From: a virus
Direction: 5' to 3' (one strand)
Virus record (IMG/VR): IMGVR_UViG_3300005939_000034
Location: 1-27,506 of that record
DNA: 27,506 nt
Shown here: positions 2,189-27,506 of the stretch, in pieces
How the letters are laid out: every line of letters starts with the position of its first letter
Position numbering within the stretch: position 1 is the stretch's first letter
Notes under the pieces: model-generated
What the model was told of the DNA's origin: nothing
The model's input: only the letters and a program-made list of their open reading frames with translations
Database searches by the model: none
Translations under genes and position numbers: made by a program

Positions 2189-3789
2189 GTCAATTAGTTA
2201 AGAAGACTGTAGAGGATTGGCTCAGAGATGTGGACTACGGTGATGATCCAAACTATGTACCAAGTGAGTTTGCGTTAGAGTTTATCAACTTTATCAAGAT
2301 GGTCAATGGTGATAAGGGTGAAGAGAATGCAAGTCCTGTTATTCACTTTAAGTGGTTAGACAACCTTTGTAATAGGAAACAGGACAGTGTTGCATTGTGT
2401 GCAAGGGGGTTCGCCAAATCAAGCATCTTTGCTGAGTATTTCTATCTTTATTTGGCTGTATTTGGATCGATTCCAGGGTTCGGAATAGTTGACTATGCAT
2501 TGTATATTAGTGATAGTATTGACAACGGTGTTAAGAAGATGAGGAACAGAATAGAAAGGAGATACCAGAACAGCGAGTTCCTTCAAGAATATATAACAAA
2601 GAGCAAGATAACTGATCAAAGATGGTACTTTGTTAATAAGTTTGGTAAGGAGTTCGTTGTTACTGGTCACGGTGTAAGTACTGGAGTCAGGGGAACAGTT
2701 GAGCTTAATACTCGACCACAGCTTGCCATACTGGACGATCTTATTAGTGATGAGGATGCTAGGAGTAAAACTGTTATTGATAAGGTTGAAGATGTTGTTT
2801 ATTCGGCTATTGACAATGCGTTGCATCCAAGTAGAAGAAAGATAATATGGTGTGGAACTCCATTTAATGCTAAAGATCCATTGTATAAGGCGGTAGAGAG
2901 TGGTGCTTGGTATGTTAGTGTGTTTCCAGTGTGTCAAGAATTTCCGTGTAAAAAGGAAGAGTTCAGAGGTGGCTGGGAAGACAGGTTTCCGTATGAATTT
3001 GTTAAGGCTAGATACGATAAAGCTGTGTTGACTGGGAAGATCAATAGTTTTAACCAGGAGCTTATGTTGAGGATTATGAGTGACGAGGAAAGATTGATTG
3101 AGGATGGTGATTTACAGTGGTACAAGCGAAGAAGTGTGGTTAAGAACAAGGGTGCATACAACTTTTATATTACTACAGACTTTGCGACTAGCGATAAGGA
3201 ACATGCAGACTTTAGTGTTCAGAATGTTTGGGGCCTGAATAGTATTGGTGATTGGTATTGGGTTGACGGTGTATGTAAGAAAATGTTGATGGACGAGAGC
3301 ATGAATCATTTGTTTAGATTGGCTCAAAAGTGGCAACCACAGTCGGTTGGAGTTGAGATAACTGGACAACAGGGTGGGTTTCTTTCTTGGATCAAACAGT
3401 TGATGAACGACAGGAACAACTTCTTTAATTTAGCTTGTCCTATTGGTTCAAATAAGCCTGGATTGAGGCCAACGAAGGATAAGATGAGTAGGTTCCAGAT
3501 GAATGCTGTGCCTCTGTTCAAGGCAGGTAAGATACACTTTCCAGAAGAGTTGATGGAGAGTAGTGAGTTAATGGAAATACTTCAGGAGTTGAGATTGGCT
3601 ACCATAAAAGGGTTTAAGTCGGCTCACGACGACCAGATAGATACTGTTAGTATGTTGGGTGAGATGGAGACATGGAGACCAAGTGGTGCTGAATATGAGG
3701 ATGAGACAGCTAAGCCTGCTGGTGATGGTGGAGTATGGGGTAATAGGTCGTTGGATGAGGATAGTGAGGAAAGCTCTTACTTTGTTTGA
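2185..3789 (+). CDS. terL: Terminase large subunit (packaging ATPase/nuclease)
   Basis: This 534-aa motor protein translocates DNA into the prohead and cuts it. The ATPase half carries a Walker A variant CARGFAKSS (about 72-80), in which arginine precedes GFAKS as in many phage terminases. It also has a Walker B QLAILDDL (179-186) and the coupling motif IWCGTPFN (221-228). The C-terminal RNase-H-like nuclease half shows TDFA with D332, the acidic GVEITGQQGG (E391) and SAHDDQIDTVS (D482/D483/D486), which together give the metal-binding triad. Length and layout are normal and intact. In gene order and size it recalls N4-type podovirus terminases. It starts with AGGA seven bases upstream. Confidence 0.93.
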   Translation: MSQLVKKTVEDWLRDVDYGDDPNYVPSEFALEFINFIKMVNGDKGEENASPVIHFKWLDNLCNRKQDSVALCARGFAKSSIFAEYFYLYLAVFGSIPGFGIVDYALYISDSIDNGVKKMRNRIERRYQNSEFLQEYITKSKITDQRWYFVNKFGKEFVVTGHGVSTGVRGTVELNTRPQLAILDDLISDEDARSKTVIDKVEDVVYSAIDNALHPSRRKIIWCGTPFNAKDPLYKAVESGAWYVSVFPVCQEFPCKKEEFRGGWEDRFPYEFVKARYDKAVLTGKINSFNQELMLRIMSDEERLIEDGDLQWYKRRSVVKNKGAYNFYITTDFATSDKEHADFSVQNVWGLNSIGDWYWVDGVCKKMLMDESMNHLFRLAQKWQPQSVGVEITGQQGGFLSWIKQLMNDRNNFFNLACPIGSNKPGLRPTKDKMSRFQMNAVPLFKAGKIHFPEELMESSELMEILQELRLATIKGFKSAHDDQIDTVSMLGEMETWRPSGAEYEDETAKPAGDGGVWGNRSLDEDSEESSYFV

Positions 3790-5815: not shown

Positions 5816-6247
5816 ATGAACGTAAAAGCGAATGTAAAAGTCACAGGTAAGCTTCAAGTGCTTATGAACGGAAACCTTCACAGCGAATTTAACAACCTTG
5901 TTGTTGATGCCGGTAAAGAATGGGTTGCCGGTATGATGACTGGTGTTGGAAATGCAATGACCCATATGGAGGTTGGTTCAGGTACTGCTAGCGCAGCTGC
6001 TGGACAAACTGCATTAGTTAGTGCTGTGGACCGTAATGCTTTACAAACTGCCGGTGGTTCTCTTACTGCCAATACAGTTCAGTATGCATGTACTTGGGGT
6101 AATGGTGATGGTGATGGTGCTCTGACTGAAGCTGGACTATTCGATCAAGCAACTGGTGGTGTAATGCTTGCACGTACAGTGTTTGACGTTGTTAACAAGG
6201 GTGATGGTGACGTTATGACAATTATATGGACAATTACTGTAGCATAA
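5816..6247 (+). CDS. Small beta-structured fibre/decoration protein
   Basis: The 143-aa protein starts at ATG 5816, six bases after AGGAG. Its strands are ordered as in a widespread phage tail-associated family: an opening VTGKLQVLMNG, the turn NLVVDAGKEWVAGMM, the site MEVGSGTASAAAGQTAL, then an ALTEAGLFDQATGGVMLARTVF stretch and a closing MTIIWTITVA strand. Members are found beside fibre genes and are thought to be structural. Its exact role here, shaft, tip or decoration, cannot be told from sequence. Confidence 0.55.
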   Translation: MNVKANVKVTGKLQVLMNGNLHSEFNNLVVDAGKEWVAGMMTGVGNAMTHMEVGSGTASAAAGQTALVSAVDRNALQTAGGSLTANTVQYACTWGNGDGDGALTEAGLFDQATGGVMLARTVFDVVNKGDGDVMTIIWTITVA

Positions 6248-14337: not shown

Positions 14338-14462
14338 TAAATAGTAAAATTATATTTAATATGGTAAGAAGAACTATAAGTGTTCATGTTTCAAGCAGAA
14401 AAATAGTTTCTAGTATTTCTAAAAAGAATATAATTAAGTTAAACATAGTTAAACGAGGTTAG
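14334..14462 (+). CDS. 42-codon beta-rich ORF before portal
   Basis: A GTG at 14334 overlaps the stop of the BppU-like gene (GTGA), and the frame ends at TAG 14460-14462. Most of this spacer would otherwise be empty. The product alternates polar and hydrophobic residues (RRTISVHVSSRKIVSSIS, then KNIIKLNIVKRG), is strongly basic and looks like two or three short beta strands. The SD is weak (GAAG). An in-frame ATG at 14361 is an alternative start. Confidence 0.4.
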   Translation: MINSKIIFNMVRRTISVHVSSRKIVSSISKKNIIKLNIVKRG

Positions 14463-14464
14463 TG

Positions 14465-16480
14465 ATGTCCGATGATATAAATAATGATAGTCTCGTTGAT
14501 TGGAAAAATGCTCCAAGTTTGCAAGATTTGAAGGCTGACGTTACTGAGGCAGAACATGCACACAATGCCCATGTCACAGAAGTTGATAACTGGCTCAAGA
14601 ACTATAACGGTGAGCAGATAATCAAGACTAAGGCTGGTAGGAGCAAGATAGTACCAAAGGTTATCAGGAAACAAGCTGAGTGGAGGTATCCAAGTCTTAG
14701 TGATCCATTTCTTAGCACTACAGATTTATTTAATGTTGCTCCAAATACATTTGAAGACAAGCAATCAGCCATACAGAATGCACAGGTACTGAACTATCAG
14801 TTTAACCATCAATTGAATAAAGTTAAGTTTATAGATGAATTTATCAGAACGTGTGTTGACGAGGGAACAGTAATAGTTGAGTTAGGCTGGGAAGAAGAAG
14901 ATGACGAACGTGAAGTAGAAGTTCCAGTTATGGGGATCGACCCAGCAACAGGTGAAACTGTTCAGGTTGGTGTTGAGTTGCAGGTTAAAACTGTTTCAGT
15001 TAAGAACCAACCAACATTAGAAATATGTCACTATAATAATACAATAATAGATCCAACTTGCGATGGTGATCTTGATAAAGCAGAGTTTGTTATTAGGAGT
15101 TTTGAGACAAGTAAGAGTGAGCTTAAGAAAGATGGTAGGTATAAGAATATAGATAAGATATCTATCGATTCATCTGATAGTTTGACCGATAGTGACTTTG
15201 AAAGTGCAGATGCAAGTAACTTTAGGTTTAGAGACGATGCTAGAAAGAAGTTTGTTGTTTATAGGTATTTTGGATATTGGGATATAGATGGTAATGGAGT
15301 AACGAAACCTATTGTAGCTGCGTGGGCAGGTGACGTTATGCTTAGACTGGAAGAAACTCCATTCCCAGATAAAAAGATACCTTTTGCATTGGTTCAATTC
15401 CTTCCACGTAGGAAGCAGGTTTACGGTGAACCAGATGGTGCGTTGATTGAGGACAATCAAAAGGTCATAGGTGCTGTTACACGAGGTATTCTTGATGTAA
15501 TGGGTCGAAGTGCAAATGGGCAGCAAGGTAGCCGTAAAGACGCTCTTGATCCAGTCAATGCACGTAAGTATGAACGTGGTGATGATTATAAGTTCAATGC
15601 TAATGTTGACCCAAGGCAAGCATTTCACATGGGTACATATCCTGATGTTCCAAGAAGCGCTATGGATATGATTGGATACACTTCAAATGAAGCTGAGAGT
15701 CTTACTGGCGTTAAAGCATTTAGTAGCGGTGGCATTACAGGGAATTCACTTGGAAACAGTGTTGGTGGAGCTAGGCTTGCTACAGACGCTACAACCAAAA
15801 GAGAACTTGACATACTTAGACGGCTTGCTAATGGAATCGTGCAGATAGGTAGAAAGATTATAAGTATGAACCAAGAATTTATCAGTGATGAGGAAATTCT
15901 TAGGATAACTGATGAAGAATTTGTTAATATAAGCAGAGATGATCTTGCTGGAGAGTTTGATATTACATTGAGTATTAGTACTCCGGAAGCTGATAATGAG
16001 AAAGCTGCTGGCCTAGAGTTTATGTTGCAGACCGCAGGTGAGACTATGCCGTTTGAATTTAAGCAGATTATACTTAGCGATATAGCCAGGCTTAGAAAGA
16101 TGCCAGAACTTAGTAAGATGATATCTGAATACCAGCCACAACCAGATCCCGCTGCTGCGTATAAGGCTAAGCTTGAGATTCAGTTGTTGGAAGCTCAGGT
16201 TTACAATGAACAGGCTAAGGGCCAAGAGAATGCTGTGGACGTTGGGCTTAAGCAGGCTAAGACAGAAACAGAGATTGCAAAAGGTAGAAGTCTTAATAGT
16301 AAGTCTGATAAAGAAGATCTTGACTTTGTCGAGCAAGAGTCTGGAGTACATAGACAACATGAACTTGACAAACAAGATAATGATAGTAAGAATAAGAATG
16401 AACAGAAGTTGGTTGATTTAATGATAGCTGATGAACAAGGTGCTGGTGCTGTCGGTGATGGTAATGCTGGTGTACAATAA
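14465..16480 (+). CDS. Portal protein
   Basis: The 671-aa portal ring subunit is best started at ATG 14465, six bases after GAGG; the GTG at 14462 is too near. The N-terminal half has the clip and wing regions, with the early motif KVIRKQAEWRYPSLSDPFLS (substrate-entry part of podovirus portals). A central DPTCDGDLDKAEFVIRSFE and PFALVQFLPRRKQVYGEPDG follow, then GVKAFSSGGI, a putative tunnel-loop region. A long charged C-terminal coiled coil (from about residue 555) ends in an acidic, glycine-rich tail. Size and motif order recall N4-type portals. It is followed by the scaffold and capsid genes, as expected. Confidence 0.85.
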   Translation: MSDDINNDSLVDWKNAPSLQDLKADVTEAEHAHNAHVTEVDNWLKNYNGEQIIKTKAGRSKIVPKVIRKQAEWRYPSLSDPFLSTTDLFNVAPNTFEDKQSAIQNAQVLNYQFNHQLNKVKFIDEFIRTCVDEGTVIVELGWEEEDDEREVEVPVMGIDPATGETVQVGVELQVKTVSVKNQPTLEICHYNNTIIDPTCDGDLDKAEFVIRSFETSKSELKKDGRYKNIDKISIDSSDSLTDSDFESADASNFRFRDDARKKFVVYRYFGYWDIDGNGVTKPIVAAWAGDVMLRLEETPFPDKKIPFALVQFLPRRKQVYGEPDGALIEDNQKVIGAVTRGILDVMGRSANGQQGSRKDALDPVNARKYERGDDYKFNANVDPRQAFHMGTYPDVPRSAMDMIGYTSNEAESLTGVKAFSSGGITGNSLGNSVGGARLATDATTKRELDILRRLANGIVQIGRKIISMNQEFISDEEILRITDEEFVNISRDDLAGEFDITLSISTPEADNEKAAGLEFMLQTAGETMPFEFKQIILSDIARLRKMPELSKMISEYQPQPDPAAAYKAKLEIQLLEAQVYNEQAKGQENAVDVGLKQAKTETEIAKGRSLNSKSDKEDLDFVEQESGVHRQHELDKQDNDSKNKNEQKLVDLMIADEQGAGAVGDGNAGVQ

Positions 16481-16509: not shown

Positions 16510-16857
16510 ATGCAAGACGAGAATTTAGGTGAAATGGAAGAAATTCGTATCAGTATTGAAGAGGCAGAACATGCCATAGCTTTGAGAGATGATATCAACA
16601 AGATGCTTGAAAATCCATTGGTTAATAAGGTAGTTGGCCATCATTATTTCCAGGAAGAGTCTATGAGACTTGTGTCCTGTCTGGGTGAAGATAATCTTGA
16701 CGATAGGACTAAGCTTGAGATGCAAAAGATGCTATACGGTATTGCCTATTTTCAGCGTTGGCTCAGGGTAACTGTTCTACAGGGTAATGAGATGGAAGAG
16801 CATGTTAAGGCTGCACGGGACGAACTTGATAGAGAAGTTGATCCGGAGGTTAATTAA
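16510..16857 (+). CDS. Head-assembly-associated helical protein
   Basis: The 115-aa protein has AAGGTGA before ATG 16510 and lies between portal and scaffold. It is all helical: EEIRISIEEAEHAIALRDD, MLENPLVNKVVGHHYFQEES, then YFQRWLRVTVLQGNEMEEHV. This matches a short protein family found in the same slot in other podoviruses, to my recollection. It may assist prohead assembly or bind scaffold. Its stop overlaps the scaffold start. Confidence 0.55.
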   Translation: MQDENLGEMEEIRISIEEAEHAIALRDDINKMLENPLVNKVVGHHYFQEESMRLVSCLGEDNLDDRTKLEMQKMLYGIAYFQRWLRVTVLQGNEMEEHVKAARDELDREVDPEVN

Positions 16858-17990
16858 TGGCTAATGGCATTGACGAAACCGTTGATCTTGAGAATATGAG
16901 TGATGATGATTTTATGGAAGCAACTGAGTCTGACGATCCTATTGGAACCGTTGCCGAAGTAAATAGTGAAGTAGTGAACGATGAACAAGATGGACCTGAT
17001 GAAGATTTGGATGAAGCTGATGTCGATGATCAAGAGGACACTCTGGATGATGACCAATCAGACGATGAAGATGATGAGTCAGAAGATGGCAGTGAAGAAG
17101 ATGATGGTCAAGTAGACAAAGACACGGAAACTCTCGATGGAGAGCAAGATACTGAAGATACCCCTGATATCGACTTTGAAGCTGGTTATAAGGATTTATT
17201 TGCGCCATTTAAAGCCAATGGTAAGTACATGCAGGTAGATAATGTGGAAGATGCCAGACGACTCATGCAAATGGGTGTTGGGTATCAAAAGCGGATGTCA
17301 GAGCTTAAACCACATTTGAAGATTATCAAAAGTCTTAAGAATAACGATTTGCTTGATGTAGATAAGATAAATCGCCTTATTGATTTGGATAAGAAAGATC
17401 CTGGTGCAATTGCTAAGCTAATTAAGGAAGCGGGAGTAGATCCACTTGATATCGATACTGAGGCTGGCGAAGAGTATAAGCCGAAAGATTATGGTGTCTC
17501 TGATTCTGAGTTCGATCTCGACCAAGCGATTGACAATATTCGTGGCAATGAAAGCTATGATAGGTCAATAGCCGTGATGGGAGAGCAATGGGACCAGAAA
17601 AGTAGAGGTATTATAGCCGAAAATCCTGAGATCGTAGGTATTATAGATAGCCACATTCAAAGTGGTGTATTTGATGCAGTGCAAGCTCATGTTGAAAAAG
17701 AACAAACTTTAGGTAGGATGAAAGGTTTGTCTAGCATTGAGGCGTACCGTGAGGCAACGCAGGTACTGCAGAAAAATGGGGTTCTTGAGGGTGATGGCGT
17801 TAAGAAAGAATCTGATCCAAAAAACAAAGAACCTAATCCATTGGTAAAAGAAGCTAAGAAGAAGCAGGAAGCTAGTCGCAAAAAGCGCAAGAAAGCTGCT
17901 GCTCCAATTAAAGGTAAACCAAAGTCAAAGAAGTCTGAAAAAGATTATGATAAGATGTCTGATGCAGACTTTATGGCAGAGGTTGGCTAA
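16857..17990 (+). CDS. Scaffolding protein
   Basis: The 377-aa protein starts at ATG 16857 (GGAGG seven bases upstream, TAATG overlap). Residues about 15-105 are extremely acidic (long runs of D and E), as in scaffolds and decoy-like cores. A helical middle (FKANGKYMQVDNVEDARR onwards) follows, then a lysine-rich C-terminus (KKKQEASRKKRKKAA). A short motif occurs near both ends: MSDDDFMEA at 14-22 and MSDADFMAEV at 367-376. Position directly before the major capsid gene supports the call. Scaffolds of N4-like phages have the same composition. Confidence 0.8.
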   Translation: MANGIDETVDLENMSDDDFMEATESDDPIGTVAEVNSEVVNDEQDGPDEDLDEADVDDQEDTLDDDQSDDEDDESEDGSEEDDGQVDKDTETLDGEQDTEDTPDIDFEAGYKDLFAPFKANGKYMQVDNVEDARRLMQMGVGYQKRMSELKPHLKIIKSLKNNDLLDVDKINRLIDLDKKDPGAIAKLIKEAGVDPLDIDTEAGEEYKPKDYGVSDSEFDLDQAIDNIRGNESYDRSIAVMGEQWDQKSRGIIAENPEIVGIIDSHIQSGVFDAVQAHVEKEQTLGRMKGLSSIEAYREATQVLQKNGVLEGDGVKKESDPKNKEPNPLVKEAKKKQEASRKKRKKAAAPIKGKPKSKKSEKDYDKMSDADFMAEVG

Positions 17991-18009: not shown

Positions 18010-19365
18010 ATGATTTATAGTGATCCCGTAAACGGTTTGAAGTCAAGTGTTGATGTTGGTGCTCCAGAAGGTGAACAGTTTAATCTGTTTAAATGGCAAC
18101 GCAAGGCTCTTATTGCCATTCGTAACCGTCAGGTATTCCAACAGTTGGCAGATACTACTGTGATGCCTAAGTATCATGGTAAAAAGATTAAAAAGTATGA
18201 ATACATTCCGGTCTTGGATGATCGTAATGTGAATGATCAGGGGCTTGATGCTGCTGGTGCAACTCTGATTATGGACAAGTTTCATCTGTTCACCGCAGAT
18301 AATGTTTTGGTTCCAGATGCTACTGTTGCTGGTAATGCTGCTGGTTTCAGTACCGCTGCACTCGCTGAAGCCGCTACTGGTTACGTTGCCGCTACAATGG
18401 TTGCAATGAGTGGTGGGCTTTCTTTGTATGGTGGATCTAAGGATGTCGGAACCATTACGAAGCGTCTTCCTGCTCTCACTGAGGAAGGTGGGATGGTGAA
18501 TAGAATCGGTCACTCTCGTACTACACTTGAGGGTTCTATTGCTGAGCAGGGTTTCTTTAGTACTTATACTGAAGATTCTATTCAGTTTGATACTGACGAC
18601 ATGCTGCTTGATCACATTATGACCGAATCACTCGTTGCTGCTAATGAGCTTGTTGAAGATAACCTTCAGCTTGATCTTATTGCTGCTGCTGGTGTAAGTT
18701 TGTTTGCTGGCGGTGTAACCACTGTTGAAACTATTGATGGTAATGCTGCTTCTGATTGTATCGTTAATTATAAGGATCTTTTGAAGATCAATATTACCTT
18801 GGATGACAATAAGTGTCCAAAAGGAACCAAGCTTATTAGTGGTTCACGTATGATCGATACCAAGGTTATTAGTGCTGCTCGTTATTGTTATGTTGGATCA
18901 GAACTTCTTCAGACTCTTGAGGGAATGGTTGATCTGCATGATGTTGCTGCTTGGAAAGAGGTTGCCTCTTATGCTCAGGCTGGTAATGTTGCTGTTGGTG
19001 AGGAGGGTGCAATTGGTCGTACTCGCTTTATTGTAGCCCCAGAGATGATGCGATGGGAAGGTGGTGGTGCTGCTGCTGGTGCGAATGATCAGAATTGTGC
19101 AGTTACTGATGTTGAAGGTACTGACCATTTTGATGTAGCTCCAATGTTGTTTGTTGGTTCAGGTAGTTTCTCAACTATTAGCTTTAGTTCTTCCGGAAAG
19201 TCTGTGAAGTTTAGTATTATTCACAAGAAGCCTGGCGTTGCTACTGCTGATGCGTATAATGACCCGTATGGTAAGAAGGGCTTTTACAGTTTGAGATTCT
19301 GGTATGGGACTCTAATAACACGTCCAGAATGGATTGCATTGATATACACTGCAATTGAAGAGTAA
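18010..19365 (+). CDS. Major capsid protein
   Basis: The 451-aa protein follows the scaffold gene and starts at ATG 18010. The N-terminal arm (SDPVNGLKSSVDVGAPEGEQ, then FKWQRKALIAIRNRQVFQQL) and the E-loop-like stretch TTVMPKYHGKKIKKYEYIPVL match HK97-fold coats of the N4 type. A long helix (DHIMTESLVAANELVED, then LQLDLIAAAGV) acts as the spine helix. The C-terminus has the family's DPYGKKGFYSLRFWYGTLI followed by RPEWIALIYTA. A shift towards GCT, GGT and CTT codons fits high expression. A free-standing homing endonuclease gene follows. Confidence 0.88.
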   Translation: MIYSDPVNGLKSSVDVGAPEGEQFNLFKWQRKALIAIRNRQVFQQLADTTVMPKYHGKKIKKYEYIPVLDDRNVNDQGLDAAGATLIMDKFHLFTADNVLVPDATVAGNAAGFSTAALAEAATGYVAATMVAMSGGLSLYGGSKDVGTITKRLPALTEEGGMVNRIGHSRTTLEGSIAEQGFFSTYTEDSIQFDTDDMLLDHIMTESLVAANELVEDNLQLDLIAAAGVSLFAGGVTTVETIDGNAASDCIVNYKDLLKINITLDDNKCPKGTKLISGSRMIDTKVISAARYCYVGSELLQTLEGMVDLHDVAAWKEVASYAQAGNVAVGEEGAIGRTRFIVAPEMMRWEGGGAAAGANDQNCAVTDVEGTDHFDVAPMLFVGSGSFSTISFSSSGKSVKFSIIHKKPGVATADAYNDPYGKKGFYSLRFWYGTLITRPEWIALIYTAIEE

Positions 19366-19498: not shown

Positions 19499-20110
19499 AT
19501 GGAATGTGTTGAAGATCTTGGTATCAAAGAAACAGTATCTAAGAATGGCAATATCAGGGGTAGAAGGTTTGGTTTGTTTATGTGCCCAGAGTGCTTTGAG
19601 AAAGTTGAGGTTGATATATATTACGGCAAGAAAGCAAAAACCTGTGTAAAGTGTAGGCCGTATCATATGAAGTGTAAGCATCACATGTGTAACACTAGGC
19701 AACATGCGATATGGAAGGGAATGAAGCAGAGATGTGACGACAAGAAGCGTGAGAAAGGAATTAAGTATGATGTATCATGGTCAAATTTCAATGAATTTTG
19801 GAAAGACATGGGGCCGACATACTTTGATGGTGGATCAATAGATCGAATAGATAACAACAGTGACTATTGTAAAGAAAATTGTCAGTGGTTAACCTTCTCT
19901 GAAAGCGCAAAAAAAGATAAGATAAAAAAAGTTATGCAGTTCGAGATATCAGGTAAAGGTAAAAATATAATATATACTAACTGTGTAAGCACGTTTGACT
20001 CTGTTGTGGAAGCAGAAGTGAAGACTGGATTCCATAGGTCTGGTATAGCAAGATGTGCAAGGGGAGAGCGTAGAAAGGCCAATGGATATGGTTGGAGATA
20101 CGTTAACTAA
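19499..20110 (+). CDS. Free-standing HNH-type homing endonuclease
   Basis: The 203-aa protein starts at ATG 19499 (AGAGG five bases upstream). The N-terminus holds a zinc ribbon with CPEC and CVKC pairs (about 26-29 and 48-51). The catalytic region has the phage pattern QHAIWKGMKQRCDD, then FWKDMGPTYFDGGSIDRIDN, then YCKENCQWLTFSESAKKDK. The C-terminus (DSVVEAEVKTGFHRSGIARC, then GYGWRYVN) is a NUMOD1-type DNA-binding tail. Such genes home into the same site in related genomes lacking them. Its place between capsid and a head gene is a typical late-region insertion. It looks complete. Confidence 0.75.
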   Translation: MECVEDLGIKETVSKNGNIRGRRFGLFMCPECFEKVEVDIYYGKKAKTCVKCRPYHMKCKHHMCNTRQHAIWKGMKQRCDDKKREKGIKYDVSWSNFNEFWKDMGPTYFDGGSIDRIDNNSDYCKENCQWLTFSESAKKDKIKKVMQFEISGKGKNIIYTNCVSTFDSVVEAEVKTGFHRSGIARCARGERRKANGYGWRYVN

Positions 20111-21331: not shown

Positions 21332-23608
21332 ATGGGGTTATTTGATACAGAAATAAGGCAGTTTGAGATGTATAACCAGCCTTTGGTAGATGATCCAAAT
21401 ACTGCAGACCTTATCGGACCTGCAGTAGTAGCCATGAGGAGAGAAGAAGACTTCATGGATCACGTAAGACTAGCCTTGGTCGCCATTCTTGGTAGAAAGG
21501 ATATTCATAAATTCCAAAATATAATTGAAGATGGTGTAACTCCAAATATAGAGTTTCCGGATTCAAACATAAACTTACTAGTTGTACCTAATGCTTATCA
21601 TGAGTCATTGGTTCCAGTTGGTGGAGAGTGTACTGGTGTGAGAGTTGGCCATATGCGTGTTATCGATTGGATCAATTTCTACATGGCCCAAAACTCAGTG
21701 TCTCCATATCAACCTTGCATACAACGGCCAATAGTCGACATAGACGATGGTAACGATGGATTTAGGAGTGTTGGTGTTATAGGAGCATCGTTGAACGCTA
21801 CAGGCACTGCATATATAGCATACGCATTGGATCATGGTGCCGGTGAAAATCCAATTGACACAGTTATAGAACTTGAACCAGAAATACCACTAAAACCAGA
21901 TGGTATATTTAGTGTAGTTTATTATTCATATGGACAAATTGATCCAGAGGAACCAGAGGGTGGTTGGAGCGAGGAGGAAAGACCAGAATCATTTGAACGG
22001 TGTGGTCTTGCATATTATCCTATAGAAGAACCTGACTTTAGTTTTGGGCAAGAAGGCGGAGAGTTCAGAACATTTCCGCCACTTCCATTGAGGGTTAACA
22101 ATGAAAACTACTATGCTGCGTTTGACGAAGCAAAAATAGATGATATAGAGAAGCTTGGTAAGATTGTTGGAGTTGATACAGGCAAGCTTATCGATGATGT
22201 AATGGAGGGAGCGGAAGAGGAAGGTTACGACTCCAAGATGGATCATGTATTTCTTAACTTTGGGACAAGGATTCATGATAATTCTGAAGCTAGTTGTAGG
22301 TATTTGTATTTATTGTTTAGCAAGATAAGAGAGTATGGACTTGAGGCGGGAGATGGTAGCTTTGGATTTTATCCATGTTGGTACAATGAAATTGTAAAGG
22401 TCGAAGGTGCTATAAACCCAAGTGTTTATACTCCTGCAATGTGTAATATAATTACTATTGAAACAGATGACTATTATTATGAATTTACGTTCTCAATGAT
22501 CTCAGACGAAACTATGACAGTAGCTGCTGTATTGGCCGATGAGATTATGGGACCGCAATACGAGGACCGTGCTAACGCTTCTGGTAAGTTTTGGTACATA
22601 AGTTCAAGTTCGGGTGATCCAAGTCGTGAGGAGGAGTATGAGCAGCCTCCCGCGGAAGCTGGTATGTGGCCAGAAGAGGGTGAACAGCCAGTTGAGATAA
22701 TGTTTGGTGAATGTGATGGTGGTGACGTAAGGTTTATTAAGATAGTTGGTATTGGTGGCAAGGTAAGAATTAAGGATACTGAGACTGGTGTGGTTAAGAT
22801 GAGGAGACTTAACTACGATGATCCAAATAGTATAACTGTACCGTATATACCTGCTATTGGAGAAGTACTTACTAACCATGAGTTAGCTGATAACTTCTTA
22901 AGTGGACTTCATGTTAGTATGTATATAGCTGACATAGAAACCAAAAGTAAAAGCTGGTGGATGGTAATAGCTCAGATCATCATTGTAATTGTTGTTACGT
23001 GGATAAGTTATGGACAGATGACCGGAGCTACATTGTCAGCGCTTGGTGCTGCTGATGTCATTGCTATGGGAGCGCTCATGATAGCTGGATATATAATGGG
23101 CAAGATAGTTGTCGGTATATCTAGGGATCTTGGTTTAATAGCTGGGGCCATAGCTGCATTGTTAGCAATGTATATTACTGGTAGGATGACTACTGGTTCA
23201 TTCGCAAGTATTGGAAGTATCAGTTCTAGTTTTTCAAGTATGAGTTTGATGGATATACTGTCAACATCGTTCAAAACATTAAGTCAAGCTGTAAATACAT
23301 ACACTGGATCGTCTCTTGGTGATATTGGAAGAGAGTTTGAAGGAAAAAGAGAGTGGTACGCCAATGAGATTAACTTGCTTGGTGACCAGCGTGAAGAGCT
23401 GGAAGAAGAAGAAGGTGGTTATGTCGGCAGTGAGGTTTTGATAGAAGACTTGATAAATAGCAGTATAAGGACTACTGTGAATCCAATGGACGCAAGTAGT
23501 TACTTTGATTTTTACGACAAGTTTCACGAGATAGGCGAATCATTTTTCGATACAGATAATTTACTAGAAGCTCCATTTGATATGGAAGCACAATTAATGC
23601 CGGTTTAA
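21332..23608 (+). CDS. 758-aa virion protein with three C-terminal membrane helices
   Basis: The protein starts at ATG 21332 (AGAGG eight bases upstream). The large N-terminal part is soluble: an early MRREEDFMDHVRLALVAIL, then a conserved-looking FPPLPLRVNNENYYAAFDEA (about 248-267) and DHVFLNFGTRIHDNSEASC (304-322). Three strongly hydrophobic segments follow (about 542-559, 568-596, 600-618), with an acidic tail after them. Membrane segments in a protein encoded just before the inner-core trio suggest it is released into the host envelope during genome entry. I know no enzymatic motif in it. Confidence 0.55.
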   Translation: MGLFDTEIRQFEMYNQPLVDDPNTADLIGPAVVAMRREEDFMDHVRLALVAILGRKDIHKFQNIIEDGVTPNIEFPDSNINLLVVPNAYHESLVPVGGECTGVRVGHMRVIDWINFYMAQNSVSPYQPCIQRPIVDIDDGNDGFRSVGVIGASLNATGTAYIAYALDHGAGENPIDTVIELEPEIPLKPDGIFSVVYYSYGQIDPEEPEGGWSEEERPESFERCGLAYYPIEEPDFSFGQEGGEFRTFPPLPLRVNNENYYAAFDEAKIDDIEKLGKIVGVDTGKLIDDVMEGAEEEGYDSKMDHVFLNFGTRIHDNSEASCRYLYLLFSKIREYGLEAGDGSFGFYPCWYNEIVKVEGAINPSVYTPAMCNIITIETDDYYYEFTFSMISDETMTVAAVLADEIMGPQYEDRANASGKFWYISSSSGDPSREEEYEQPPAEAGMWPEEGEQPVEIMFGECDGGDVRFIKIVGIGGKVRIKDTETGVVKMRRLNYDDPNSITVPYIPAIGEVLTNHELADNFLSGLHVSMYIADIETKSKSWWMVIAQIIIVIVVTWISYGQMTGATLSALGAADVIAMGALMIAGYIMGKIVVGISRDLGLIAGAIAALLAMYITGRMTTGSFASIGSISSSFSSMSLMDILSTSFKTLSQAVNTYTGSSLGDIGREFEGKREWYANEINLLGDQREELEEEEGGYVGSEVLIEDLINSSIRTTVNPMDASSYFDFYDKFHEIGESFFDTDNLLEAPFDMEAQLMPV

Positions 23609-23623
23609 CCGGGAGGTAATGAA

Positions 23624-24004
23624 ATGGCAAGTAATTACATGGACCAACGGCCACAGATTGGCGATACTGGTTACGACTGGAATAAGATGGGAATAGATGC
23701 GATGGGCTTAGGTGGTGACCTCGGTGGATACTTCGGTGTTCCACAACAGGATATCGCACCACCTGATACTGGATTTGATTGGGGTGGAGCGGCTAAAGGT
23801 TTCGGTTCAGTTACTAGTGGTATTGGCGGGTTAGCTCAAGCTTGGCAAGGGATGCAGGGATTAAAATTAGCCAAAGAACAGCTTGGTACGCAGAATGCCC
23901 AGTGGGAGAAGAATTACGCAGCCCAGAGAGATGACATAGCTGTTAGTCGTGCTGAGAGGGAAGATGCTCGCGCCAGATCTAAAGAGAACTTTGTAGTAGC
24001 ATAA
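23624..24004 (+). CDS. Small internal virion protein (T7 gp14-like position)
   Basis: This 126-aa protein has GGGAGG seven bases before ATG 23624. The N-terminus is glycine-rich and flexible. The middle AAKGFGSVTSGIGGLAQAWQ and a C-terminal coiled coil (LKLAKEQLGTQNAQWEKNYA, then ISRAERE-like charges) resemble the smallest core/ejection protein of podoviruses. It is the first of three genes that would form the inner core and entry channel. The call rests on order and composition. Confidence 0.55.
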   Translation: MASNYMDQRPQIGDTGYDWNKMGIDAMGLGGDLGGYFGVPQQDIAPPDTGFDWGGAAKGFGSVTSGIGGLAQAWQGMQGLKLAKEQLGTQNAQWEKNYAAQRDDIAVSRAEREDARARSKENFVVA

Positions 24005-24025: not shown

Positions 24026-25744
24026 ATGGCTAATGCAGTAACATGGAAGAATATTGGAACTGTTAGTGGTGCAGGTGCGCTTGCTGCTGCTAATAGTTCA
24101 AGACAGGATATAGGGCAAGGAATAGCTAATATAGGCAAGGCAGCTAGTGGGTTCGGTGATGATCAAATTCAAGCTGAAACAGATCTAGCTGTCAATGCCT
24201 TAAGGGCTGCTGCCCCAGATGACAGGCAAGGATTGTTGCAAAGTTTCGCTGATAGCAATATTAGTATGCATAGCGATCAGATAGGCAAGGTTGCGTCTGA
24301 GATTGATGCACGGGATTTCGCTGAAGACAAGTTCAGAACCACAACCGATGCGACAGGTGCTCAGCGTAATATTCAGAACGAATTGGATCTATCTAAGTTT
24401 GAATATAAAAAGGAACAGGACGCTTTCTCAAAAGCATTATCTGTCAAAAAGTATAATCAAAAAGCCAATGAGTTTAACAGGTCTTATGACGTTGCCAATG
24501 GATTATCAAGACCAATGCCCATGTGGGACGGATCGACTAGTGTTAATCCAATTGAACAAGCGCAAATAGATAACGTTGCAATCAACCAAACTAAAAGTAA
24601 TCCACAGTTTGAAGGTGATACAAAAGATCTTGACAGCTCTGGCCCAATACTTGTGTCACGTAAAGATGCAACTGTACTTGCGATTCAAGATTTAAAATTA
24701 AATGGTAGTACCGGTGGGTTTAAGTCGAACAGGGATGAGGTTGAAAGCAAGTCAGGTGATATACTTATTTCAAGCGCAGTTGATGCATTCTCTCCAGTTA
24801 TAGAGAAATCTATCAATGATTTTATGGCTACGAATTTAGAGTTTTTTGATGAAGACGGTAAGATTGACTATTCTGCATTCCAAGATCAGGATCAGAAGAT
24901 AGCTCCTGGTGCAGTTAAGGCCGGTAAGATGTTGGATGGTAGGCTGAGTACAATGACAAAGCAGATGAACAAATATCTTCGTAATTTCCCCGCTGGTCCA
25001 AAGAGAGACGCAAGGGAGAAGCAATTCAGAGAGGAGTCCGGACTAAATAAGCTTGACAGCATGAGCAAGGAATTTAACTCCAAGGTTTCTGAGCAACAAA
25101 AGTTTGAACGAACACAGAAGGGGAAATCGGTTGTTAAGGGTGACAAGGTAAGAAGTTATTACGATACAACTAGTAGTGTGTCAAAGGTGTATAACGAAAA
25201 CTATAAAGATAGCGACTATGATATAAGTAACTTTAAAAATCAAATAGCCACAATGCGCAATGTAGTTCCACCAGCATACGATAGTCTTCCAGATGGTCTA
25301 ATAGCTGAGGCTATCAGTAATGTCACTAAGGCTGGAAGTACTATTGGTTTTGATACAAACAATATAGAGCTTATAAACAATCCAAGTGCTACTGCTAAAC
25401 AAATTAATGTTGCTGTGTATGAGGAGATTAGGAACATAGTTAGTAGAAAGAATGGTAGTACTAATAATACATTCATGCCAGCCGTGGCAAACTTAAGTAG
25501 AGAAGATGTTGCAAAAGAGACTGCTGAGCTAAGAGCTACAAGGGCACCAGAGTCTACTTTGGTGAAAGCTGCTACTTTAGCTGGAAAAGTTGGTCGTGTA
25601 GCCAAAACAGCCAGTATGTTTACACCTCTTGGTGCTGGACTATTAGGTAAAACATTGTTCGACAAATCTAAAAATCTTACCAGGTCTCTTGATACCAAAG
25701 AAGAAAGAGATGTACTGTTAAAGGCATTAAAAGGTGACAAATAA
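24026..25744 (+). CDS. Internal core/ejection protein (T7 gp15-like position)
   Basis: The 572-aa protein starts at ATG 24026 after CAGGTGA. The opening MANAVTWKNIGTVSGAG is typical of core proteins of this type. Most of it is helical and charged, with scattered repeats such as QIQAETDLAVNALRAAAPDD. The C-terminus has a glycine-rich hydrophobic stretch (LAGKVGRVAKTASMFTPLGA) that could touch membrane. It overlaps the next gene by TAATG. In T7-like virions the second core protein lines the DNA channel across the periplasm; here this is inference. Confidence 0.55.
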   Translation: MANAVTWKNIGTVSGAGALAAANSSRQDIGQGIANIGKAASGFGDDQIQAETDLAVNALRAAAPDDRQGLLQSFADSNISMHSDQIGKVASEIDARDFAEDKFRTTTDATGAQRNIQNELDLSKFEYKKEQDAFSKALSVKKYNQKANEFNRSYDVANGLSRPMPMWDGSTSVNPIEQAQIDNVAINQTKSNPQFEGDTKDLDSSGPILVSRKDATVLAIQDLKLNGSTGGFKSNRDEVESKSGDILISSAVDAFSPVIEKSINDFMATNLEFFDEDGKIDYSAFQDQDQKIAPGAVKAGKMLDGRLSTMTKQMNKYLRNFPAGPKRDAREKQFREESGLNKLDSMSKEFNSKVSEQQKFERTQKGKSVVKGDKVRSYYDTTSSVSKVYNENYKDSDYDISNFKNQIATMRNVVPPAYDSLPDGLIAEAISNVTKAGSTIGFDTNNIELINNPSATAKQINVAVYEEIRNIVSRKNGSTNNTFMPAVANLSREDVAKETAELRATRAPESTLVKAATLAGKVGRVAKTASMFTPLGAGLLGKTLFDKSKNLTRSLDTKEERDVLLKALKGDK

Positions 25745-27506
25745 TGGCTTTTGGAAAGTTTGAGTTTTCTGGTGTTGATGACCTATATTTAAGTGAAGAA
25801 AAGAAGTTGGAAAACAAGGCTGCTCGTAAAAAAGCGGCTTTACCTATTTTTAGTAAGAAGGCAACGCTTGTAAGTGCCGTTGATGGGGATACTTTTAACA
25901 TACTTGAAGCCGAAAAGAATCTTAGGCTTTCTGGTGGTATAAACACTGCTGAATCAACAGAGACTGGGTTGTCTAATAATAAGATCCTTAGGAGTCAACA
26001 GAGATCATATGGTGCGAAGTATGGAGTACCATGGGAGACAGTAACAAAGGCAACTATAAAGCAGGAAGGTTTGGATGCTAAAAAAGCTGCACTTGGTGCA
26101 CTTGGTGGAGAAGGGTCCGATATACAATATGTTGAAAAAGGTGTTGATAGATATGGAAGAACACTTGCTGATGTTTATAGTAGTGATGGTGATAATTTAG
26201 CAGATACATTGAGTGGAAGAAATGCTAATAATCAATTTGATTCAGCAACTGCAAAGGGTAAGTATACAGGCGAAGTTGGAACAGGATTTGACGATAAGGG
26301 TAGTCCGGAAATTCAGATTGGGTCAGATGGCTTGTTTGTGTATGGTGACCATCAGCACTTGACCCGTAGCGACCTTGAGAAGAACCGAGAGCTATATGAT
26401 GCAGATTTTGCCTACAAGTATAGTTGGGATGCAAAACTTGGCAGTGGGATAGCTGGTCAAGTTGCTGATGTTGCAGGTATGTTGTATTCAGGTACAGGCA
26501 TGGTTAAAGATATATTTGAGAAAGGTATATTGTCTGGCTTTACTCCAGGGAACACTCTTGAAGATAGTTTTAACACTTGGAACAATATTCCTCATGTTGC
26601 TAGCGGTAAAACAAAAGCTGGTGTTATTGGCAATAATGAGAGGGTGATGTTTGATAGTATAGTTAATGCTGAGACGCTTACCGACGAGCAAGAAGAGTTT
26701 ATTGGTAGCCCAACAGGTAGGAATATGCTTAGGATTGCCACTGAGTATAGAGAGAAGAGAGAAGAGTTTAAAGAAATTGGTGAAAATGCTGAGGACAGAT
26801 CTAGTGTTGTCGATAGACGAAAAAGTGTAGCTGTGAACAAGGAATTCATAGAAAAGTATGAAGATGAGGGGCTTGGAAGTGCGCTACTGTTTGGATTAAA
26901 GAATGCTCCGCACTTTGGTTATAAGATGGTTGAAAGCCTACCACTTATGGTCCCTCTTGCTACTCCAGGTGTAAGTGTTGTAACCATGGCTGCTATGTCT
27001 GAAGGCGGTACTATGGATGGTGTTGAGGAATTTAGACTTACAAATGGTAGTGAACCAAATGAGAAGGAAGTCAACACTATAGCTGGATGGAAAGCTGCTT
27101 CAGCTTTATTTGAAAAATTTGGTGCTGATAGAGCCTTTGCAGGTAATACTACTTTTATAAAGCAATTTTTAAAGTCAGCGGGCGAACTTGAAAAACCATT
27201 AAGATTTTTAGCCAAAGGTGCTGAAAGCTTATTTTCAGAAGGTGCATCTGGAGGTGGATCTGAATTTTCTGATCAGATGGCTATAACGCAAGATGTAAGT
27301 AATGTTGATTACGGTAAGGTTGCACTTGGGGCCACAGAAGAAGCTCTTGGTGCACTTGGAATATCTGCGTCTAGTGGGTTGGTTCGTGGAGTTAAGAAAA
27401 TCAAACCAACTAAAGCAATTGACAATAAAATAGAAGATGCCACACCAACTCCTCAAGCGTCTCCGTCAACATACACTCCAACAGAAGGTATTGGTGGAGC
27501 TGAGAC
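25744..27506 (+). CDS. Giant ejection-type protein with N-terminal SNase-like domain, 3' end outside window
   Basis: The open frame runs at least 587 codons from ATG 25744 to the window edge. Residues about 40-165 match staphylococcal nuclease: AVDGDTFNI (D49), NLRLSGGINTAE (R61, N67, T68, E70), then RYGRTLADVY (R139), followed by DGDNLADTL. In SNase terms R35, E43 and R87 are kept, while D40 is replaced by N67. The rest is an alanine/glycine-rich helical region (AGQVADVAGMLYSGTGMVKD, VPLATPGVSVVTMAAMSEGG, LAKGAESLFSEGASGGGSEF), as in the largest inner-core proteins of podoviruses. It is third in the core gene set. Confidence 0.65.
   Translation, partial: MAFGKFEFSGVDDLYLSEEKKLENKAARKKAALPIFSKKATLVSAVDGDTFNILEAEKNLRLSGGINTAESTETGLSNNKILRSQQRSYGAKYGVPWETVTKATIKQEGLDAKKAALGALGGEGSDIQYVEKGVDRYGRTLADVYSSDGDNLADTLSGRNANNQFDSATAKGKYTGEVGTGFDDKGSPEIQIGSDGLFVYGDHQHLTRSDLEKNRELYDADFAYKYSWDAKLGSGIAGQVADVAGMLYSGTGMVKDIFEKGILSGFTPGNTLEDSFNTWNNIPHVASGKTKAGVIGNNERVMFDSIVNAETLTDEQEEFIGSPTGRNMLRIATEYREKREEFKEIGENAEDRSSVVDRRKSVAVNKEFIEKYEDEGLGSALLFGLKNAPHFGYKMVESLPLMVPLATPGVSVVTMAAMSEGGTMDGVEEFRLTNGSEPNEKEVNTIAGWKAASALFEKFGADRAFAGNTTFIKQFLKSAGELEKPLRFLAKGAESLFSEGASGGGSEFSDQMAITQDVSNVDYGKVALGATEEALGALGISASSGLVRGVKKIKPTKAIDNKIEDATPTPQASPSTYTPTEGIGGAE

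Follow-up and report, generated by a model that had tools for sequence, protein, structure and literature searches.

A putative staphylococcal nuclease-type domain at the N-terminus of an N4-type virion RNA polymerase

Near the end of a 27,506-nucleotide stretch of viral DNA (positions 1 to 27,506 of IMG/VR record IMGVR_UViG_3300005939_000034, the whole of which is here called the window), a gene that starts at position 25744 raises the question of what a nuclease-like sequence would be doing at the front of a giant phage protein. A first-pass annotation had proposed that a staphylococcal nuclease (SNase)-like domain fronts a giant ejection-type virion protein. Completion of the gene identifies the giant as an N4-type virion RNA polymerase (vRNAP), and a divergent SNase-type domain, hereafter the head, very probably forms its extreme N-terminus: the proposal is supported by a predicted fold, by a profile-profile match and by conservation of the catalytic positions in 21 heads.

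The gene at 25744 and the predicted fold of its N-terminus

The frame from 25744 to 27504 (+ strand) is free of stop codons and continues past the end of the window. As the first-pass annotation had advised, the gene was completed 3' of the window, on the near-identical contig IMGVR_UViG_3300031227_000095 (locus L003; 45,435 b), where 7 mismatches to the window occur in the 11,166 b compared; the full gene (L003:9404-20062) encodes a product of 3,552 aa, of which the window (25744..27506, +) holds the first 587. The complete protein matches phrog_2206 with an E-value of 1.1e-211, in three ordered pieces (profile positions 1023-1925, 2266-2530 and 2585-3385), and in tblastn its polymerase part matches 228 phage records and its C-terminal part 368. 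It contains EVDGITNG at residues 1719-1726 (DGITNG from 1721), Rx3Kx7YG at residues 1798-1811 and HDA at residues 2139-2141, which we take to be the motif A region (ExDGxTNG), motif B and motif C, respectively; in comparison with eight isolate vRNAPs, the E, DG and TNG of the motif A region and the R, K and G of motif B are invariant. A phmmer search of the polymerase part against the PDB did not list an N4 vRNAP entry, its sole match being unrelated. The gene product is an N4-type vRNAP, and an anonymous ejection protein is ruled out by the phrog_2206 match; the first-pass annotation had the ejection class right and missed that the giant is the vRNAP.

The motifs from which the SNase proposal arose do lie in the open frame: VDGDT at residues 46-50, RLSGGINTAE at 61-70 and RYGRTLADVY at 136-145. 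The SNase-type domain extends over residues 38-165 approximately (25855..26238, +). In the first 180 residues, PF00565 aligns with residues 109-156 (E 0.002, 19.0 bits), and two PHROG nuclease families match the head at 3.4e-5 and 9.3e-5; phmmer against the PDB gives weak thermonuclease and integrin matches (best E 0.092). Because 19.0 bits is the best that the window head reaches against a curated Pfam cut-off of 21 bits, we call it divergent SNase-type and not a Pfam member.

An AlphaFold model of residues 1-199, calculated from an alignment of 12 heads (two of which, L055 and L090, were later judged doubtful), has a mean confidence score (pLDDT) of 75, rising to 83-93 in blocks of ten residues between 41 and 150; four of the five models have means of 71-75, and one is poor at 45. 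The predicted strands (residues 38-47, 50-53, 58-62, 126-134 and 140-145) together with the helices follow the SNase order, which predicts an oligonucleotide/oligosaccharide-binding (OB) barrel of the SNase fold; a secondary-structure assignment of the model (DSSP) places an additional N-terminal helix at residues 11-36 (25774..25851, +) ahead of the barrel. The best PDB matches of the model in Foldseek are staphylococcal nuclease (E 3.4e-5, probability 1.00, TM score 0.52 by target), and with VIA staphylococcal nuclease structures match at Z 11.5 over 100 residues (2.8 A, 24% identity). All six named entries among the top ten of a BFVD structure search are nucleases or TNase-like proteins. 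The profile and structure searches by which the first-pass annotation had suggested checking its proposal thus both lead to SNase.

Recurrence of the head and conservation of its catalytic positions

Relatives were gathered by two IMG/VR scans, one with vRNAP residues 1540-3480 (best 80 of 184 relatives kept) and one with a closer core alignment (best 80 of 130 kept, overlapping the first set). Together with eight isolates and one locus from a metagenome-assembled genome, these scans yielded 168 loci in which the motif A pattern recognises a polymerase open reading frame (ORF); the loci represent 124 distinct vRNAP cores, and 15 of them are cut at the 5' side. When 13,832 ORFs were searched at E<=1e-5 with a profile hidden Markov model (HMM) built from ten heads, from which L055 and L090 (both placed by eye) were left out, 21 distinct heads were returned, a set that did not change in a second round; ten of these had not been used to train the model and are not close copies of a head that had. 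L055 (E 9e-5 in the first round and 0.002 in the second) and L090 (unlisted) are not counted.

A head is present in 20 of the 124 distinct cores, a proportion that is not a population frequency because the window's own vRNAP served as the seed for sampling. The first-pass annotation had missed this recurrence in relatives. Most stand at the start of the vRNAP chain; in four of the 20 cores the head is on a separate upstream ORF, either directly before the polymerase ORF (L077/L084, L081) or further upstream (L074, L154). In these same five loci the vRNAP itself is split, its N-terminal and polymerase parts being encoded in at least two ORFs. One further head (L128) has no polymerase ORF recognised by the motif pattern. 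The headed cores include two near-copy pairs (L118/L119 and L110/L157). Outside the 20 of 124 stand L130 and L149, whose heads appear by eye to be more canonical SNases (L130 scores 20.2 bits, just below the Pfam cut-off). A scan with four heads added five contigs, in which the head is on a 1,224-aa ORF (two contigs) or on ORFs that run off the locus (three); no polymerase motif was seen on these head-bearing ORFs. A scan of genome contigs yielded one vRNAP (L178), which has no recognised head. The head is not universal in Schitoviridae, which is ruled out by eight isolate vRNAPs with no SNase match in their first 300 residues.

In SNase, R35, E43 and R87 are catalytic and D21 and D40 are calcium ligands. 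On what we take to be this SNase numbering, the window's D47-G48-D49 (25882..25890, +) corresponds to D19-G20-D21, both aspartate positions being D in 21 of 21 heads; R61 (25924..25926, +) corresponds to R35 and is R in all 21, a column that is less sure because the alignment is gappy in that stretch; E70 (25951..25953, +) corresponds to E43 and is E in 20 heads and D in one; and R139 (26158..26160, +) corresponds to R87 and is R in all 21. The position of D40 is occupied by N67 (25942..25944, +) in the window and by N in its nearest relative L015, and by D in the other 19 heads. These counts lean upward because the heads were picked by an HMM that includes the positions concerned. Of the five positions named in the first-pass annotation, D40 is indeed the sole one altered, with D21 (as D49), R61, E70 and R139 kept. 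The order of the motifs is likewise that of SNase, as claimed, whereas the spacing is not: R61 to E70 is 9 residues against 8, and E70 to R139 is 69 against 44 for E43 to R87. The latter difference is due to an extra insert of residues 71-105 approximately (25954..26058, +), between the E43 loop and helix 1, which appears as a gap against canonical SNases in hhalign and contains a helix-like stretch common to the heads (helix 79-93 in the window model).

Comparison of the 21 heads with nine canonical SNases by hhalign gives a probability of 96.6% (E 6.7e-10), with the DxD, R35, E43 and R87 region aligned; the controls, three sets of N-termini from vRNAPs without a head, give 0.6, 0.2 and 4.1%. 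In the opposite direction, the ten-head HMM recognises a free SNase ORF (L095:1453-1842, - strand; PF00565 E 1.3e-12) in the record of the headed locus L053, at 1.4e-5 among 7,959 ORFs and 2e-5 among 13,832; three of the next-ranked ORFs (L175, L140 and L061; E 0.07-0.1 in the second round) are Pfam SNases, and shuffled-ORF decoys reach at best 0.57 and 1.5 for the two HMMs. The phage of L053 thus encodes a free SNase in addition to its SNase-headed vRNAP. That the head merely resembles SNase by chance in short motifs and has no nuclease fold, as the sub-threshold Pfam score might suggest, is very improbable in view of the predicted fold, the profile-profile match with its negative controls, the conserved catalytic positions and the new members found by the HMM. 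A chance motif match was rejected on the predicted fold, the controlled profile-profile comparison and the decoys.

The ratio of nonsynonymous to synonymous substitution rates (dN/dS) of the head is 0.149 for L130/L149 and 0.125 for L017/L020, a third pair being without differences; the low values in the two measurable pairs indicate purifying selection on the heads. The head is probably a catalytically competent nuclease. The competing view, that the SNase fold has lost catalysis and serves to dock nucleic acid or gp51, holding the genome end or assembling the ejectosome, would account for the N at the D40 position in the window phage and for the variation of T41 and P42 among heads. We consider it improbable, since all 21 heads keep D19, D21, R35 and R87, and 20 of them E43, despite identities of 19-30% to the window head (in the 12-row alignment).

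Position of the head and what it may do

The vRNAP gene is preceded in the window by a gene that corresponds by position to N4 gp51, and the two appear to be affected together in one pair of sister phages. Starting within the N-terminal protein, 19.7 kb of L077 and L084 agree at 99.84% identity, whereas between L077:3523-8450 and L084:3507-8450 the SNase head and the gp51-like gene, except for its first part, show no match at the DNA level, in a block that ends at about nt 5893; both heads are matched by the head HMM. This single-block difference would also suit a non-catalytic docking module that binds gp51. L136 and L150, from a clade that lacks SNase heads, are 93% identical in polymerase DNA and 23% identical at their N-termini. 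Comparisons of L136 with L147/L150 and of L131 with L152 likewise give 23-45% identity between N-termini and 82-93% between polymerase DNAs. The vRNAP N-terminus looks like an exchange hot spot. In a quick tree of the 124 cores, all 20 headed cores fall on one side of the starred branch (49 of the 124 rows), and six changes of head state are counted, at least three of them forced; this count of gains and losses is rough because the tree is a quick one with 13 long branches.

Other enzymes occupy the same slot in some relatives. The vRNAP N-terminus of L131 (L131:2897) is a soluble lytic transglycosylase (SLT) domain (E 4.6e-19); that of L040 (L040:3119) is SLT-like by eye; among the eight isolates, the vRNAP start of pVa5 (L009:4729) is lysozyme-like (E 2.6e-4, 21.8 bits, just under the cut-off of 22.3), and pYD6-A (L012:1627) has a very weak transglycosylase match (E 8.7). 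L131, with SLT by Pfam, and L138, on the same contig as L040 and with SLT by eye, fall inside the main headed clade.

Conversely, the first-pass annotation had missed that SNase domains occur on or next to the preceding ejection protein in other phages. The 992-aa gp51-like protein before the vRNAP of L175 (L175:2919-5894) carries two domains, SLT (E 1.9e-11) and, at its C-terminus, SNase (2.7e-20); an ORF that is cut at its start and lies before the vRNAP of L061 (L061:1-1191) ends in SNase (4e-20); and in L140 an SNase occupies its own ORF (L140:4535-5308; 1.6e-17) with the gp51-like gene on one side and the vRNAP on the other. All three PF00565 matches are over the Pfam cut-off. A 55% identical relative of the L175 SNase (L186:8662-9453) lies between a gp51-like ORF and a 2,991-aa ORF; the latter is incomplete at the edge of the locus and showed no polymerase motif. 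Of the other relatives of this SNase, L184 proved to be the L175 contig itself, L185 has 100% identity to it across the stretch that matches, and around the SNase of L187 a gene order of the gp51/vRNAP type was not seen. Taken together, the vRNAP heads and the gp51-side SNases amount to at least two ways of placing SNase at the gp51/vRNAP junction. The presence of the head in 20 of 124 cores, combined with this second arrangement, suggests that a nuclease at this position in the ejectosome has been selected for repeatedly. That the gp51-side SNases are far over the Pfam cut-off also speaks against a head that only binds.

What, then, would a nuclease do there? As in N4, the capsid would contain the vRNAP, which would leave it after the channel proteins that resemble gp52 and gp51, its ejection with the genome being taken over from N4. 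In the N4 model in the available text of a preprint (PMC12633501), the gp51 C-terminus and the N-terminal domain of gp50 meet at the inner membrane. From this N4 model, the gp51-side SNases and the peptidoglycan hydrolases in the same vRNAP slot, the head would be expected to come to rest near that junction. Calcium is plentiful in the periplasm and scarce in the cytosol; after passage, the head would fold, bind calcium and cut nucleic acid outside the protected channel, a calcium gate being suggested by the biochemistry of SNase. Reasoning by analogy, we lean towards a nuclease that is ejected, is probably gated by calcium and lies close to where the ejection channel ends at the inner membrane. 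It may act, more tentatively, at the inner-membrane or periplasmic face; the periplasmic side is preferred because the lysozyme and SLT domains in the same slot of some other vRNAPs have their substrate only there. The likeliest targets would be nucleic acid at the membrane, such as the DNA of competing phages, or host nucleic acid.

The main rival to a target at the membrane is takeover of the host, in which the head would enter the cytosol with the polymerase and degrade DNA or RNA of the host early on, which would free nucleotides and silence the host as the polymerase reads the early genes. According to the available text of PMC12633501, a cytosolic role is proposed for the RNAP and the C-terminal domain of N4 vRNAP; early-infection effector roles are proposed for domains fused to vRNAP in PMC5512222, as far as its available text goes; and the catalytic positions are conserved in the heads. 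We nevertheless consider host takeover rather unlikely, as peptidoglycan hydrolases occupy the same slot in some relatives, an unrestrained cytosolic nuclease would endanger the phage genome, and cytosolic calcium is low for a classical SNase. It is distinctly improbable that the head instead processes the phage's own nucleic acid and, in a DNA-entry program, nicks or trims at the membrane the genome that is coming in or its first transcripts. In favour of this, the head is joined to a polymerase that binds the entering genome and that in N4 uses hairpin promoters (PMC12633501, available text); against it, the eight sampled isolate vRNAPs show no SNase match. SNase is, moreover, largely non-specific.

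Several points weigh against an active nuclease near the inner membrane. Beyond the altered D40 position and the variable T41 and P42, the hhalign profile match ends short of the C-terminal part of canonical SNases, and structural alignments stop somewhere from SNase residue 111 to residue 141, the point varying with the PDB entry. PF00565 is found at E<=0.05 in just two of 61 scanned vRNAP N-termini, and when 12 records with a candidate head were scanned in full, it matched the head in only two (the window's contig and L015), both below the cut-off. In tblastn searches of 50,697 phage records with six heads, no convincing relative was found (best E 1, 0.9 and 2e-3, three heads being without a match), so that no isolate is at hand; the match at 2e-3 is to H107, an Aeromonas phage, over 45 residues. 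Exchange of the SNase head is supported by one pair, L077/L084; the location and target of the head are argued by analogy; and a nuclease packed with the genome needs a restraint, which this reading leaves unexplained.

A more far-reaching version of the favoured reading, which is speculative and which we regard as doubtful, is that an N4-like lineage ships a calcium-gated nuclease at the gp51/vRNAP junction, so that its own DNA, in the tunnel or in the low-calcium cytosol, would be spared while DNA arriving in the periplasm would be destroyed, a form of superinfection exclusion that would operate from the first minutes on. The head and the gp51 C-terminus would then be a co-evolving pair of nuclease and restraint, and such a matched pair would account for the single-block difference between the sister phages and for the SNases on or beside gp51. 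If the head is active, a nuclease is packed beside the genome that it could destroy and is delivered with the polymerase that starts the infection. This would raise the questions of how the enzyme stays inactive in the capsid, whether the vRNAP N-terminus comes to lie on the periplasmic or the cytosolic side of the inner membrane, and whether phages block competitors before any gene expression. SNase heads in uncultivated relatives point to an unstudied activity at the moment of infection.

Gene neighbourhood and comparison with known systems

The window encodes the genes expected ahead of an N4-type vRNAP. The gp51-like ejection protein (24026..25744, +; 572 aa) is assigned by position, directly before the vRNAP as in annotated Schitoviridae regions; its stop codon overlaps the vRNAP start (TAATG), and Pfam and PHROG scans gave it no convincing family match. 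It is preceded by a small protein that is gp52-like by position (23624..24004, +; 126 aa; phrog_2646 of unknown function, E 1.4e-12; order as in L007) and by a gp53-like protein (21332..23608, +; 758 aa; phrog_2220 of unknown function, E 4.9e-31; order as in L007 and L009). The order from gp53-like to vRNAP matches L007 and L009, and is followed by opposite-strand genes beyond the vRNAP. Placement of the vRNAP as the third ejection gene, which the first-pass annotation had proposed, fits by position (gp52-like, gp51-like, vRNAP), given the N4 roles in the available text of PMC12633501. Further upstream are the portal protein (14462..16480, +; PF23899 E 2.6e-139, phrog_1216 E 6.1e-221) and the major head protein (18010..19365, +; phrog_1357 E 2e-103), and the window also encodes a terminase family. 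From the N4-type gene order ending in vRNAP and from the portal, head protein and terminase families, the source appears to be a Schitoviridae-like podophage.

Behind the SNase-type head, the start of the vRNAP N-terminal domain is assigned by position to 26281..27504 (+); in L082, the phrog_2206 match begins at residue 147, overlapping the end of the head. Residues 398-418 (26935-26997) are the most hydrophobic 21-residue stretch in the whole protein. Besides the usual HExxH motif at residue 2462, the vRNAP has a second one ahead of the polymerase core, at residue 1175 (L003 nt 12926); HExxH upstream of the core also occurs in L015 and some relatives, and both motifs are seen by pattern only. 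Two other genes of the window deserve mention. An HNH endonuclease gene (19499-20110, +; phrog_3377 E 3.4e-25), which by its look is of the homing type, sits after the head protein gene and overlaps the frame of the next conserved gene. The 377-aa protein encoded between portal and head protein (16857-17990, +) carries the PHROG label 'tail length tape measure'; from its position, a scaffold role seems more likely.

Among known systems, N4 gp50 (Schitoviridae) is described in the available text of the preprint PMC12633501 as an ejection protein with an N-terminal, an RNAP and a C-terminal domain. The window protein shares with it the polymerase core motifs, the C-terminal HExxH, the length of ~3,500 aa, the position after gp52- and gp51-like genes and the opposite-strand genes behind the vRNAP gene. 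It differs in its N-terminus: the N-terminal domain of N4 gp50 is described as lipid-binding, the word 'nuclease' occurs 0 times in the available text of PMC12633501, and the eight isolate Schitoviridae vRNAPs lack an SNase match, as noted above. From PF00565 proteins, which include SNase and phage TNase-like proteins, the head differs in one extra residue between R35 and E43, the insert after E43, a match that ends before the C-terminal part, the change of D40 to N in the window phage and the fusion to vRNAP; it shares with them the predicted OB barrel and the DxD, R, E and YGR positions.

Titles and abstract openings returned by searches of open-licence PMC papers contained no report of an SNase-vRNAP fusion; a paper that brings together N4-like phages and a thermonuclease was set aside, as in its available text the gene belongs to phage R4C, which is not grouped there with the N4-like phages; and the available text of PMC7824862 has 0 mentions of SNase. 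The terms SNase, staphylococcal nuclease, TNase and thermonuclease likewise have 0 mentions in the main text, as available, of PMC5512222, which describes the closest precedent: N4-like vRNAPs fused to metallopeptidase, lysozyme/transglycosylase, PBECR (RNase) and ADP-ribosyltransferase (ART) domains. These polyvalent proteins and the window protein would have in common a giant ejected polymerase with an extra effector domain; they differ in that the domain is here an OB-fold SNase, as predicted, at the extreme N-terminus. The window protein carries this SNase head and the RNAP in one chain, and the two would be delivered together. Fusions of vRNAP to lysozyme, ART and PBECR domains are published; none to SNase was found in the literature searched.

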